Assembly: GCA_937899905.1 (NCBI GenBank)
Contig: CALCCF010000041.1
Coordinates: 43,605 to 107,604, forward strand
Reading direction: 5' to 3'
Origin: an uncultured Phycisphaeraceae bacterium
Lineage (GTDB): Bacteria > Planctomycetota > Phycisphaerae > Phycisphaerales > UBA1924
Length of the DNA stretch: 64,000 nt
This document shows, piece after piece, positions 11,347 through 35,290 of this stretch. The notes beneath the pieces are model-generated. The model worked only from the letters and a program-made list of their open reading frames with translations, did not search any database and was not told where the DNA came from. Numbering within the stretch: position 1 is the stretch's first letter; each line of letters opens with the position of its first letter. Made by a program: the position numbers and the translations under genes.

Positions 11347-12045
11347 TCAGGCCGCCTCCATCTGCCCACCGGTCTGCCCGCTCTGGACTTCGTTACTGGG
11401 CACGCCCAGGCTGATGACAACAGTCGCCGTCCACGGGCTCACGCGCGTGTCGGTGCCGGCCTTGCCCACGCCCGACGCCGGGCGCTTGGCGCGGATGCGG
11501 TAGCCGGCCTGGGCCGTGCCCGCGGGCACGCCGCCGTCGAGCAGTTCGCGCGTGGTCACGGTGTCGACGGCGGTCCACGTCTGCTGGCTGTCGAGCGATC
11601 GCTGGACCTCGTAGTACGTGCCCAGTGCGAGCGAGCCCTCCCAGCGCAGCTCGACCAACCCCTGCGGGCGCAGGCCAATGGTGACATTCGTTGGCGCGAC
11701 GGGGTCGGGGCTGGGCGTCGGCTGGGCGGGCGGCTCCAGGCCGGCGGCGGCGTACACGCCAGGGTCGCTCTCGGCGCGGGCGTAGGCCCAGATGGTCGCG
11801 ATGAGCCCAGACGCGAACGCGCGCATGTCGCCGATGGCCTGGTCGCGCGTGGACAGGGCGTTCTCGGCGGCCAGCGCGGCCGCCTGCTGGCTCGCGTACG
11901 AATCGCGGGCGGCCTGCGTAAGAACGGTCGCCGCGTTGACCTGCTCAACCGATAACCCCACGGCCGCGGGATCGGCCGCCCACAGGGGCAGGCGTTCTTC
12001 GAGGTACTCGATGGGGGCGACGATGGGGCTCTTGGGGATCGACAT
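11347..12045 (-). CDS. FN3-like domain protein, paralog of 34634..35290
   Basis: MSIPKSPIVAPIEYLEERLPLWAADPAAVGLSVEQVNAA... helical N-terminus, Pro-rich linker, FN3-like C-terminus VELRWEGSLALGTYYEVQRSLDSQQTW...VPAGTAQAGYRIRAKR; clear match to the 34634 ORF. Confidence 0.75.
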   Translation of the reverse strand: MSIPKSPIVAPIEYLEERLPLWAADPAAVGLSVEQVNAATVLTQAARDSYASQQAAALAAENALSTRDQAIGDMRAFASGLIATIWAYARAESDPGVYAAAGLEPPAQPTPSPDPVAPTNVTIGLRPQGLVELRWEGSLALGTYYEVQRSLDSQQTWTAVDTVTTRELLDGGVPAGTAQAGYRIRAKRPASGVGKAGTDTRVSPWTATVVISLGVPSNEVQSGQTGGQMEAA

Positions 12046-12177: not shown

Positions 12178-12471
12178 ACCGCGCGTCCGGGAACAGCCCG
12201 CGCGCGTCCGACAACCGCACCAACACGACCGAAAACCGCGAGCGAGCGCCGGGCGGACGCGGGCTCCCCCTCGGGAGTTTGCGATTGCCGGCCTGCGGAC
12301 GGGGATTGCCGGCCCGCGGGTGGCAATTGCCGGGCTGTATTCTCGGATTGCGGGCCCGCGTTTTGTGATTACTGGCCAGCAGATTTCGATTGCAGCCCCG
12401 GAAGATCGGGTTGGCAAGCCGCACGTTGCGATCGCGGACGCGCGACCGGCGGTCAGGGCTGCCGCCAGATG
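12178..12471. repeat. Array 1: degenerate 21-bp tandem repeats
   Basis: Clear consecutive 21-nt units from 12283 (gattgccggcctgcggacggg / gattgccggcccgcgggtggc / aattgccgggctgtattctcg / gattgcgggcccgcgttttgt / gattactggccagcagatttc / gattgcagccccggaagatcg / ...); weaker 21-nt periodicity upstream (GCGCGTCCG at 12181 and 12202; AAC[CA]GC at 12192, 12213, 12234). Confidence 0.85.
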
Positions 12472-12959
12472 GCCCGGATGGTGGGGGGGATGAGCCAGAC
12501 GAGCCTGTCGAGGAACCAGACGCGGAGGCAGTCGAGGTAGAGGAGGATGATCTTGAGAATGAAGCATGTATTGAGAAATGCGCGGGCGCCTTGGGAACGG
12601 TATCGCCTGTAATAAGCAATCCGGTCTTCACGCAACTCTTCAAGGGTCGGTTCAAAGCACCTCTTCCGAATCGACTTCGGAACGAGAAACGCGGCAAGAC
12701 GCGCTCCCCGTTCAATCTTGTTGTGATCGGAGGACGCAAGAAATCGAACTGCGTTCCTGCCAGCTGATAACATAAGCCTGCGGTTTACGGTGTGCGCCCT
12801 GCACTCGACACTAGAGACAAGAAGACCTTGACTGCTGAATCGATCCATGCGTCGTTTGATCCGTGATGGACGGTCAAGACCCCGATAGCTTCGCTCCATA
12901 GAGGACCCGTCAGGACGGACCAGCGTTACGCGCATGCTGTACCACATAATTCTCAGCAT
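12453..12959 (-). CDS. PadR-coupled small membrane protein, unknown function
   Basis: Start ATG coupled to the stop of the upstream PadR gene (ATGCTGA); hydrophobic C-terminus TCFILKIILLYLDCLRVWFLDRLVWLIPP. Confidence 0.6.
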   Translation of the reverse strand: MLRIMWYSMRVTLVRPDGSSMERSYRGLDRPSRIKRRMDRFSSQGLLVSSVECRAHTVNRRLMLSAGRNAVRFLASSDHNKIERGARLAAFLVPKSIRKRCFEPTLEELREDRIAYYRRYRSQGARAFLNTCFILKIILLYLDCLRVWFLDRLVWLIPPTIRAIWRQP

Positions 12960-13315
12960 GTCGCTACCCCCGGCATCGCCACTAACGGCCGCTCAAAGAA
13001 GTCCCGCGTGCGCTCGGACGCCAGGTGCCCCTCGCCGGTCACCTTGAACACCTTCCGCCGGTACGTCTCGCCGTCCTCGAGCCACTCCTCCCAGTCGCCC
13101 TCGAGCAGGCCGGCGTCGACCATGCGGGCGAACAGCTGGTAGGCCGCGGCCTTGGTCTTGTGGGCGCCCCGGACCTTCATGGCCTCGCGGATGTCGCGGC
13201 CGGACATCTTCTTGGGTCCCATGATCGCGATGATCAGGAACTGGAGGTGCGGCAGCGGCTCGCGCTGGGGCTTCGGCTGGCAGCCGGTCTCGGTAGGTGA
13301 TGGTGCCTCTGGCAT
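12953..13315 (-). CDS. PadR-family transcriptional regulator
   Basis: QFLIIAIMGPKKMSGRDIREAMKVRGAHKTKAAAYQLFARMVDAGLLEGDWEE...YRRKVFKVTGEG winged-helix pattern. Confidence 0.8.
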   Translation of the reverse strand: MPEAPSPTETGCQPKPQREPLPHLQFLIIAIMGPKKMSGRDIREAMKVRGAHKTKAAAYQLFARMVDAGLLEGDWEEWLEDGETYRRKVFKVTGEGHLASERTRDFFERPLVAMPGVATC

Positions 13316-20575: not shown

Positions 20576-20764
20576 ACCTTGCGGGCCCACAACGCCTCGA
20601 TGCAAGGCCGCAAGACGATGGCGGGCATGCACGACACGGCATCGCGGGCCCACATCACAGCAATGCGGGCCCGCGACACGGCATTGGAGGCCTGCGCGAC
20701 GGCGTCGCAGGCCTGCACGACCATGTCGCAGGACTGCAGAACCGTTTTGCAGCGGCGTTATCCG
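20576..20764. repeat. Array 2: nine consecutive degenerate 21-bp repeats
   Basis: accttgcgggcccacaacgcc / tcgatgcaaggccgcaagacg / atggcgggcatgcacgacacg / gcatcgcgggcccacatcaca / gcaatgcgggcccgcgacacg / gcattggaggcctgcgcgacg / gcgtcgcaggcctgcacgacc / atgtcgcaggactgcagaacc / gttttgcagcggcgttatccg, all exactly 21 nt. Confidence 0.9.
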
Positions 20765-20863
20765 GTCGTGCGGTCGCGAGTTTGTGCCGGTTTGCCGCGA
20801 GAGTTGGGTGGTGTGCGGGGTGCGCGTGCGGTGAGGCTTCGGGCGGGCCCACACACCGGTGGG

Positions 20864-32724: not shown

Positions 32725-34029
32725 CTACGGGCAGCCCGCGTCGAACGCGTTCTGGAAGGCGAGGAAGTCGAAGATGGTGAACTCGCCGTCGCCGTCGAAG
32801 TCGGCGATCGGATCGCGTGCGTCGAACAGGTTCTGGAACGCCAGGAAGTCGAAGATGGTCAGCGAGCCATCCCCGTCGAGGTCGGCGGGGCAGGGCGAGT
32901 CAACGCACTGGTTGAGCAGCACGCTCGCTTCGCGGCTGCCCTCGACAGCGGCGGCGACGTCGATGGCGCCGTCGCTATTCAGGTCCGCGGCCACCACGCC
33001 CACGGGTCGCGCTCCAACCAGGAAACTCCGCTCCGCGTCAAACCTGCCGTCGCCGCGACCGATCAGCACGCTGACGTCGAGTCCACGCCCGTTGGCAACG
33101 ACCAGATCTGGAATGTCGTCGCCATCCAGATCGGCGATGGCGATGTCCATCGGCGCCGTGCCGGCGGCAAAGCTCTGGCGGGGTTGGAACGAGCCGCCGC
33201 GTCGGCCGAGAAGCACACTTGCCGTCCCGCCGTCATCGTTCGCAACGGCGATGTCGAGCACGCCATCGAGGTTCAGATCACCCAGCGCTAGGCCCTGGGG
33301 CTCATCGCCCGCGGCGAACGTTGCCTGATCCTGGAACGTGCCATCGCCGCGGCCGAGCAGCAGGCTGATGTCGTTGCTCTCCTCGTTGGACACGACCGCG
33401 TCGAGGTTGCCGTCTCCATCCAGATCGGCCAGCGCGACGTCCTGGGGCACGCGGCCCACGCGGACGCGTGCCAGCGTGTCGAACGTGCCGTCACCCTTCC
33501 CGATCAGGATGCTGGCGTCGTTATCGTCTTCGTTGGCAACGATCGCGTCGAGCGCGCCGTCACCGTTGAGGTCGCCGAGCGCGACGCCTTGTGGCGTTGT
33601 GCCGACGCTGAAGAGCTGCTGGCGCGCGAACGTGCCGTCGCCCCTGCCGAGCAGCACGCTGACGTCGCGACCCTCTTCGTTGGTTGCGACGATGTCGAGC
33701 ACATCGTCGCCGTTGAGATCACCCAGCGCGACGCCCTGTGGATCGCGACCGGCATCGAAGCGAAGCTGCTGCTCGAATGTGCCGTCGCCGCGCCCAAGGA
33801 GCACGCTGATATTGTCGGTCTCTCGGTTCGTGACGACCAGATCCGGGTTGCCGTCACGATTGAGGTCCCCGACGGCGATGTCCTGTGGCAGTGTGCCAAC
33901 GTCGTATCGGACCTCGTCGCCGAACAGCGCGTCGGGATCACAGTCCTGGGCGAGTAGGGCTGGTGGCAGGATTACCGGAACTGCCAGTGTGGCGATCCTG
34001 ATGCGGCGCGTGGCATGTAGTTGGGGCAT
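32725..34029 (-). CDS. VCBS-repeat secreted protein with GC-type dockerin-like module
   Basis: Tandem VALGDLNGDGALDAIVANEDDNDASILIGKGDGTF units; ends CPADLDGDGSLTIFDFLAFQNLFDARDPIADFDGDGEFTIFDFLAFQNAFDAGCP. Confidence 0.9.
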   Translation of the reverse strand: MPQLHATRRIRIATLAVPVILPPALLAQDCDPDALFGDEVRYDVGTLPQDIAVGDLNRDGNPDLVVTNRETDNISVLLGRGDGTFEQQLRFDAGRDPQGVALGDLNGDDVLDIVATNEEGRDVSVLLGRGDGTFARQQLFSVGTTPQGVALGDLNGDGALDAIVANEDDNDASILIGKGDGTFDTLARVRVGRVPQDVALADLDGDGNLDAVVSNEESNDISLLLGRGDGTFQDQATFAAGDEPQGLALGDLNLDGVLDIAVANDDGGTASVLLGRRGGSFQPRQSFAAGTAPMDIAIADLDGDDIPDLVVANGRGLDVSVLIGRGDGRFDAERSFLVGARPVGVVAADLNSDGAIDVAAAVEGSREASVLLNQCVDSPCPADLDGDGSLTIFDFLAFQNLFDARDPIADFDGDGEFTIFDFLAFQNAFDAGCP

Positions 34030-34334
34030 TGGTCTCTCCTCATCCTCGTCTTCGAGTCTCAAGATTATCGCAGGCATCGGTGATTTCTTATGTGTGCGAG
34101 GGGTATTGACTACGACCCGTCCCGCAGACTTCGCACCAACTTCACACTCGCGTGCAACGAGCCAAGTGAATCACGAGCGTGGTGGATTGAGCGGCTCGAG
34201 CGCTTGGCCGAACATCATGGCCGCCCGCTCGGACGCGAAGATCGATCAGTTGGTTGCGATGCTGGGCTGATCCTTCGTCATATCTGGCTGGGCTGCGATC
34301 ACCAACGGCCGGCCCGCCGTGACCATCGGCCAGT

Positions 34335-34461
34335 GTTCTGGGACGCACGTCACGGTTCTGGGACGAGACCCATGCAATTCTGGGACGCAACGCTCATGTT
34401 CTTGGACCGCCAGCACAGATTGTGGCGGTTGGCGCGATCGCAACGCTGCAGGTTGCGGTGC
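34335..34461. repeat. Array 3: degenerate repeats of about 21 bp
   Basis: ttctgggacgcacgtcacgg / ttctgggacgagacccatgcaa / ttctgggacgcaacgctcatg / ttcttggaccgccagcacaga / ttgtggcggttggcgcgatcg; unit starts 34336, 34356, 34378, 34399, 34420 (spacings 20, 22, 21, 21). Confidence 0.75.
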
Positions 34462-34633
34462 TTCGAGACGACATGGAATGCGGACATGGCCGATTGTCGG
34501 CTGCGTTTTCGGACGGACTCAGGCTTTCGAGGTTCACGATGAACTCACGCCCCATCGACGTGGCATCGCCCATCTCACCCAGCACGGCCGTGACCGTGCG
34601 CACGGACTCGGCCGACCGGGAAGGCGGTGCATC

Positions 34634-35290
34634 ATGAGCGTCATACCCGACGGCCGCAGCGAGGCGATCGACTGGTTCACCAATCGCCTAGCCGCGTGGC
34701 AGGCCGATCCTTCGGCGATCGGTCTCACGCCCGAACTCATCAACGATCTGGCAACAGCTGCCGCCGATGCTTCGTCGGCTCGGCAGACGGCCGAGCAGGC
34801 TAAGTTCGTCAAGCTCGCCGCCTCGCAGGCGTACCGCAACAAGGCCGACGCGATGCGCACCATCGGCGTCGGACTGGTTCAACAGATCCGCGGATATGCC
34901 AAGGCGACGGGCGACGAATCGGTCTTCTCGACGGCGTTGTTGCCCGATCCCGCACGACCCGAGCCCACCCCGGCCCCCGGCACGCCGTACGACTTCGGCA
35001 TCGAGCTTCGCCAGGACGGTTCGGTGGAGCTGAGCTTCAAGTGTGACAACCCGGGGAACGTTGCAGGCGTGACTTACGACGTGTCGCGACAGGACGACCC
35101 TCAAGGGGAGTTCGAGTATCTGCTCACCGCGGGCGAGCGCCGCTTTACCGATGCCACCGTGCCCGCTGGGACGGCCGTGGCCACCTACCGCGTCCAAGCC
35201 CGCCGCTCGACGCAGACAGGCGACCCGGCCCTGTTCTCTGTGCGCTTCGGCGTCGGCGGGAACGGCCAGGCGATGGCCGAGGCGGCGTAG
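34634..35290 (+). CDS. FN3-like domain protein, paralog of 11347..12045
   Basis: MSVIPDGRSEAIDWFTNRLAAWQADPSAIGLTPELIND...PDPARPEPTPAPGTPYDFGIELRQDGSVELSFKC...VPAGTAVATYRVQARR aligns end to end with the 11347..12045 protein. Confidence 0.75.
   Translation: MSVIPDGRSEAIDWFTNRLAAWQADPSAIGLTPELINDLATAAADASSARQTAEQAKFVKLAASQAYRNKADAMRTIGVGLVQQIRGYAKATGDESVFSTALLPDPARPEPTPAPGTPYDFGIELRQDGSVELSFKCDNPGNVAGVTYDVSRQDDPQGEFEYLLTAGERRFTDATVPAGTAVATYRVQARRSTQTGDPALFSVRFGVGGNGQAMAEAA

Follow-up and report, generated by a model that had tools for sequence, protein, structure and literature searches.

A gene for a small FN3-like protein and the repeat array upstream of it, found twice in the window (the whole 64,000-nt stretch of DNA analyzed here), are part of something much larger: tens of gene copies, two placements of the array, inserts of defense genes and a conserved C-terminus. 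Within this multigene family each array is private to its gene and locked to one period, the arrays are placed on one side of the gene, and the protein ending is conserved. Foreign genes, many of them anti-phage, lie on the upstream side of the FN3-like gene, and this cargo varies among species while the gene, often with its flanks, stays constant. We tentatively read the loci, with a confidence that falls a little short of even, as fixed defense hot spots, each combining a presumably short-lived FN3-like protein with a phased array. Together, the array, gene and defense loci point to an undescribed organization of a bacterium's changeable defenses; no matching description was found in the literature searched, the coverage of which was limited.

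The Gene and Array Pair in the Window

The features of the window are collected in Table 1. The proteins encoded at 34634-35290 and 11347-12045 had been predicted to be homologous, which pairwise alignment bears out with 37% identity over residues 12-191 (E=4e-28). The former is predicted to consist of a three-helix N-terminal domain, a proline-rich linker, an FN3/Ig-like domain and a flexible tail. In the AF2 model, built on a three-sequence alignment, the three-helix unit is predicted confidently and the C-terminal FN3/Ig-like beta-sandwich at low pLDDT. The family profile matches the solved FN3-like structure 3mpc (1.2e-5), and this match, together with the low-confidence predicted sandwich, supports the earlier description of the protein as FN3-like and its placement in the seven-stranded FN3 fold; Foldseek searches with the predicted model return Ig/FN3 folds only at E>=0.03. 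Nothing above the curated cut-off is found for the window protein in Pfam or NCBIfam. Counterparts of the divergent secreted-type gene adjoin the orthologues of the FN3-like gene in the related genomes G004 and L225 (the latter being the MAG 'Phycisphaerae bacterium isolate 3_bin.40').

Table 1. Features of the window discussed in the text
Feature	Position	Strand	Basis or remark
FN3-like family gene, 218 aa	34634..35290	+	ORF, homology, profile, predicted structure
C-terminal Glu-Ala-Ala codons of this gene	35279..35287	+	-AA/-AG ending typical of the family; putative ClpXP degron
~21-nt array, four units TTCT(G/T)GGAC, ~215 nt before the 34634 gene	34336..34419	+	conserved in G004, G005, L225
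Stretch that aligns to the end of the G004 orthologue's array	34319..34386	+	74% over 70 nt; shares bases with the first units; the end of an older array, now decayed, lies within it
Divergent secreted-type gene on the opposite side of the array	32725..34077	-	FG-GAP-like and dockerin-like repeats (by eye)
Second family copy, 232 aa, C-terminal -EAA	11347..12045	-	ORF, homology
21-nt array upstream of the 11347-12045 gene	12264..12402		53/84; shared part of the unit, on the gene's strand, ~GGCCGGCAATC
21-nt array without adjacent FN3-like gene	20598..20801		lies 162 nt upstream of a 619-aa gene on the minus strand

The array before the 34634 gene consists of TTCTGGGAC at 34336, 34356 and 34378 and TTCTTGGAC at 34399. 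The original prediction placed a 21-nt period at 34335-34461; this stands as a periodicity significant against shuffles but not as a strict spacing, since the units are 20, 22 and 21 nt apart and thus only about 21. In the 556-nt intergenic region 34078-34633 a 10-mer occurs three times, which none of 3000 dinucleotide-shuffled versions of the region reproduced; at lag 21 the region scores 43/84, whereas no shuffle scored above 42. This short array ranks among the weaker ones of its genome and falls just under the threshold of the 86-locus count given below. We regard it as real because TTCTGGGACG-type units, two or three at ~21 nt, occupy about the same position upstream of the orthologue in G004, G005 and L225. 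Orthologues of the window gene are 77% and 80% identical in two same-genus genomes and 71% in L225. In G004, G005 and L225, a stronger second 21-nt array stands ahead of the TTCTGGGACG-type units, and of this array only the end can be aligned in the window. Homology, upstream placement and period therefore confirm the predicted second gene/array pair. A scan of the window array for terminators and sigma-70 promoters gave no match, nor did an Rfam search of the tested stretch.

Two further observations concern the other arrays of the window. The unit of the strong array at 20598-20801 resembles by eye that of the array at 12264-12402 (GCATTGCGGGCC versus GATTGCCGGCCC). Past the array of the 11347-12045 copy, the minus strand of 12453-13315 holds a 120-aa gene that is PadR-like by eye and a low-GC gene of 168 aa.

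A Gene Family with Private, Period-Locked Arrays

The genome-wide check called for by the original prediction yields ~23 family copies in the window's own genome (3.63 Mb, 113 contigs), with arrays private to each paralogue. In the same genus, two finished genomes have 42 (G004) and 21 (G005) copies, and the count elsewhere reaches 51; an ad hoc codon model supplied the gene calls throughout. Beyond the taxonomic family, copies are few or absent: full-length relatives are seen in that family and in one genus of a neighboring one, and elsewhere in the phylum matches are at the level of FN3 only. The same layout of gene and array is seen in other genera (G012, G014, G025 and G026).

Some features of genome layout were noted in passing. 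In G004, 0.8 Mb (2.81-3.61 Mb) is without an FN3-like gene, and the remaining chromosome has about one per 65-70 kb. Two of its loci, L125 and L129 (1821725 and 2000882), look like a duplicated block: in both, the array is followed by one of two paralogous secreted-type genes (610-626 aa), then by one of two paralogous genes of 408-410 aa, then by the FN3-like gene. In the window's own genome, many family copies lie ~1 kb or less from contig ends (C39, C56, C6, C20, C14, C61 and C100), as though the loci break the assembly.

Across 86 loci in three species, an intergenic lag-21 array lies less than 900 nt upstream of the gene in 46 and 0.9-6.9 kb upstream in 20; the other 20, some with truncated genes and some at contig ends, have none at the threshold on which these counts depend. 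In the first kilobase upstream of the gene there are 0.48 arrays per kb; the density peaks again, at 0.08-0.09 per kb, between -3 and -5 kb and is near zero downstream. The median array comprises ten units and spans 213 nt. Several stand without a family gene nearby. Averaged over 61 arrays, self-identity reaches 0.562 at lag 21 and 0.545 at 42; at all remaining lags from 4 to 47 it stays at 0.27-0.30. A half-helical period of 10-11 is absent from this lag spectrum and was rejected. Coding heptapeptide repeats were likewise set aside, as the codon-phase shares equal those of the shuffled control. Dyad symmetry of the units gives a signal against shuffled columns that is gone against genomic 21-mers (3/61 at p<0.05), and a repeat-plus-spacer architecture fails as a general description, with conserved and variable columns scattered over the unit. 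An array made by reverse transcription, as in a diversity-generating retroelement, was rejected, there being no RVT_1 match in any of the genus's seven genomes.

Arrays of orthologues (>=60% protein identity) exceed the 99th percentile of unrelated pairs in 36% of cases (p=4e-9), as against 1% for arrays of paralogues. Orthologue arrays are thus often alike and paralogue arrays are not, which means that each gene lineage has its own array, inherited and slowly replaced. The original prediction that each copy has its own repeat with the same period and a similar placement accordingly holds across the 86 loci.

Arrays and family also occur together on the scale of genomes, as judged from samples rather than whole genomes. 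In G004, 36 noncoding arrays are found in 731 kb around family genes versus 5 in 460 kb far away, and samples of three genomes without the family (G056, G051 and G021) contain no arrays. The same-genus genome G002 has two genes of the family, one of them with a TAG inside its reading frame, and no genuine array in the 480 kb sampled, the exceptions there being a (GGGCATC)n tract and one low-complexity stretch. In this genome, the gene family and the arrays have been lost together. A heptamer tract, (GGGCATC)n/(GGGCAAT)n at L193:7461-7655 of G002, is a different repeat that mimics the 21-nt period.

Foreign and Defense Genes on the Upstream Side

Of 77 loci, 29 have low-GC genes in the 3.5 kb upstream of the FN3-like gene, compared with 6 of 58 for the 3.5 kb downstream (p=3e-4); where the array is distant, such genes occupy the interval from array to gene. 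Foreign genes lie between array and gene at about fifteen loci and past the array at about ten; the array is therefore not a strict border. A complete CBASS operon, with cyclase (3e-82), E2 (2e-33) and phospholipase effector (5e-96), stands between the 21-nt array and the FN3-like gene at locus L206 (G005:C2:1518500-1533500). The same interval holds KAP NTPases in G004 and G005 (4.8e-17 in Pfam; 5.8e-30 in PADLOC), an HATPase with a type II methyltransferase (restriction-modification) and an NB-ARC-TPR protein. Further inserts in this interval are an EruA-related NACHT protein (8e-55, below the curated cut-off) and a SIR2_2 protein, also below cut-off, accompanied by an M78 peptidase; TcmP- and DUF2806-type genes stand immediately past the array at two loci. 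The remaining inserts have no known domain or are secreted-like, and some that are linked to arrays are ordinary secreted proteins. Relative to the FN3-like gene, the cargo has either orientation. Beside FN3-like genes at L210:6863-11617, L205:8971-12555, L106:10983-13004 and L121:12411-13666, low-GC inserts have no Pfam or PADLOC match; these large inserts are candidates for an unknown defense system.

At one syntenic site in three species (G004_1918439, G005_1167921 and G000_C20), the flanks and the FN3-like gene are kept and the inserts are unrelated. The left flank is 82-86% and 70-74% identical, the right flank 84% in the two species that can be compared, and the family gene 56-74%, and the inserts encode three unrelated proteins of 1123, 1195 and 1000 aa, of which that of G005 is without a recognized domain. 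This site thus shows what defines a defense hot spot, constant flanks with differing cargo at one place. No recombinase, direct repeats or sharp junctions were found at the loci; tyrosine recombinases are present in all 37 of the 37 genomes searched and are consequently not discriminating, whether as phage integrases or as a sign of integron cassette arrays, which are defined by an IntI-type integrase with attC sites.

A Conserved C-Terminal Ending

The family proteins end in -AA or -AG in 79 of 88 cases (Ala-Ala in 61, Ala-Gly in 18), compared with 8.4% of other genes (5.0% and 3.4%, respectively). The tail is otherwise variable and unalignable, the codons of the ending vary, and the representatives from other genera all end in AA, mostly as LAA, VAA or MAA. 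An -AG ending also acts as a ClpXP-type signal, as in TacA. The C-terminal motifs of ClpXP substrates resemble the ssrA tag, and the degron of CtrA ends in NAA (PMC8138137). The family carries the C-terminal -AA, or similar, of such substrates, which makes its ending a candidate ClpXP degron.

What the Loci May Do

In the hot-spot reading, a family of Phycisphaerae would have expanded a single small gene until it occupied tens of fixed sites on the chromosome. Each site would encode a cytosolic protein that is helical at its N-terminus, carries an FN3-like domain and terminates in Ala-Ala or Ala-Gly, and the gene would stand downstream of a private noncoding array of about ten 21-bp units. The array would be a protein-bound DNA element, presumably copied and homogenized through tandem duplication, and as its units are two helical turns apart, the sites would lie on one face of the helix. 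Because arrays persist across 3-6 kb of cargo in either orientation, they are probably not ordinary promoter sites, and their job would be local to the slot, as a boundary, a silencer or a recombination junction. The FN3-like protein would be short-lived through a ClpXP-type C-degron, so that its level would report ongoing expression in the cell. In the weakest step of the scheme, it may restrain or license the neighboring defense genes, to which it is linked by position only.

The alternative that fares best, although we consider it unlikely, is that each array serves its own gene as an ordinary operator or upstream activating site, where a regulator specific to the paralogue would bind phased sites near the promoter. 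The median distance from the end of a near array to the gene is 254 nt, the period is two helical turns, the motif is inherited with the orthologue, and the TTCTGGGACG units are kept in four genomes, all of which such a site would explain. It accounts poorly for the twenty arrays that lie 1-7 kb off, across cargo in either orientation, since these remote arrays are no weaker than the near ones (median 60 vs 52.5, p=0.10), or for the arrays found between convergent genes. There is, moreover, no linked regulator gene, and dozens of distinct regulators would be required.

It is also doubtful that the arrays are neutral minisatellites of long intergenic regions in which foreign genes accumulate because insertion there is harmless. 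Identity is 0.58 between neighboring units and declines to 0.44 between units eight positions apart, a pattern suggesting that the arrays grew by local tandem duplication, as expected of a minisatellite, and the conserved columns are barely contiguous (longest run 4.3, versus 3.6 when shuffled). However, 21 is the only period, and control lags not divisible by three return almost no arrays. The lack of arrays in 480 kb of the same-genus G002, the motifs kept by orthologues and the strongly one-sided placement argue against neutrality as well.

That array and gene form a mobile cassette hopping between sites is very improbable. At a few sites the family member present does differ between two species, but family orthologues are as syntenic as other genes (8/11 vs 52/60, p=0.36), so that the idea failed this control, and the window protein queried against phages, plasmids and viral contigs gave no match. 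Least probable of all is transcription of the arrays into small guide-like RNAs that, as in CRISPR or TIGR systems, would act together with the FN3-like protein, a reading that the strict period, private arrays and link to defense genes might suggest but against which stand units that are diverged copies of one sequence rather than constant repeats with unique spacers, the lack of an Rfam match in the tested stretch or of the array motif in the viral contigs searched, and the fact that no Cas or Tas gene was noticed among the genes seen in the loci.

Returning to the hot-spot reading, we offer one speculative extension, which is more likely wrong than right by a wide measure. The arrays may be address labels, that is, locus-specific, helically phased nucleoprotein sites for accepting, keeping and exchanging defense modules at dozens of slots, and the degron-tailed FN3-like protein would be their labile partner, whose disappearance, for example when infection halts host expression, would release the local defense genes.

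The lineage seems to have built tens of hot spots from one gene family, with a private repeat of exact length at each. Why a unit should be locked in length yet free in sequence is a well-defined question of mechanism. From the conserved -AA/-AG ending follows a prediction about protein turnover that can be tested, and the interval between a 21-bp array and an FN3-like gene gives a rule for where to search for new defense systems.

Comparison with Known Systems

CRISPR and TIGR arrays are likewise regular arrays near defense genes. The loci here are not CRISPR arrays, as they have a period of 21 and no constant repeats separated by unique spacers. A TIGR array has ~36-nt units and a linked Tas (Nop domain) protein, and was rejected on account of the period of 21 and the FN3-like nature of the linked protein. 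Iteron arrays beside plasmid rep genes share with these arrays the ~21-bp direct repeats specific to the lineage of the neighboring gene, but the present loci are chromosomal and their arrays degenerate along the whole unit; an iteron/rep module was also rejected because the adjoining gene has no initiator domain in Pfam. Like ssrA-like ClpXP C-degrons such as that of Caulobacter CtrA, the family has a free C-terminal -AA (or -AG) after a flexible tail; unlike them, the putative degron, here read from sequences, is conserved throughout a multigene family.

Hot spots for defense systems beside conserved genes are already known. Defense islands and integration hot spots flanked by conserved genes resemble the present loci in their fixed flanks and variable, low-GC cargo rich in anti-phage genes. 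Unlike these, the present loci number tens per genome, each marked by its own 21-bp array and by one gene from a single family, and the sites examined showed no integrase, tRNA or prophage.
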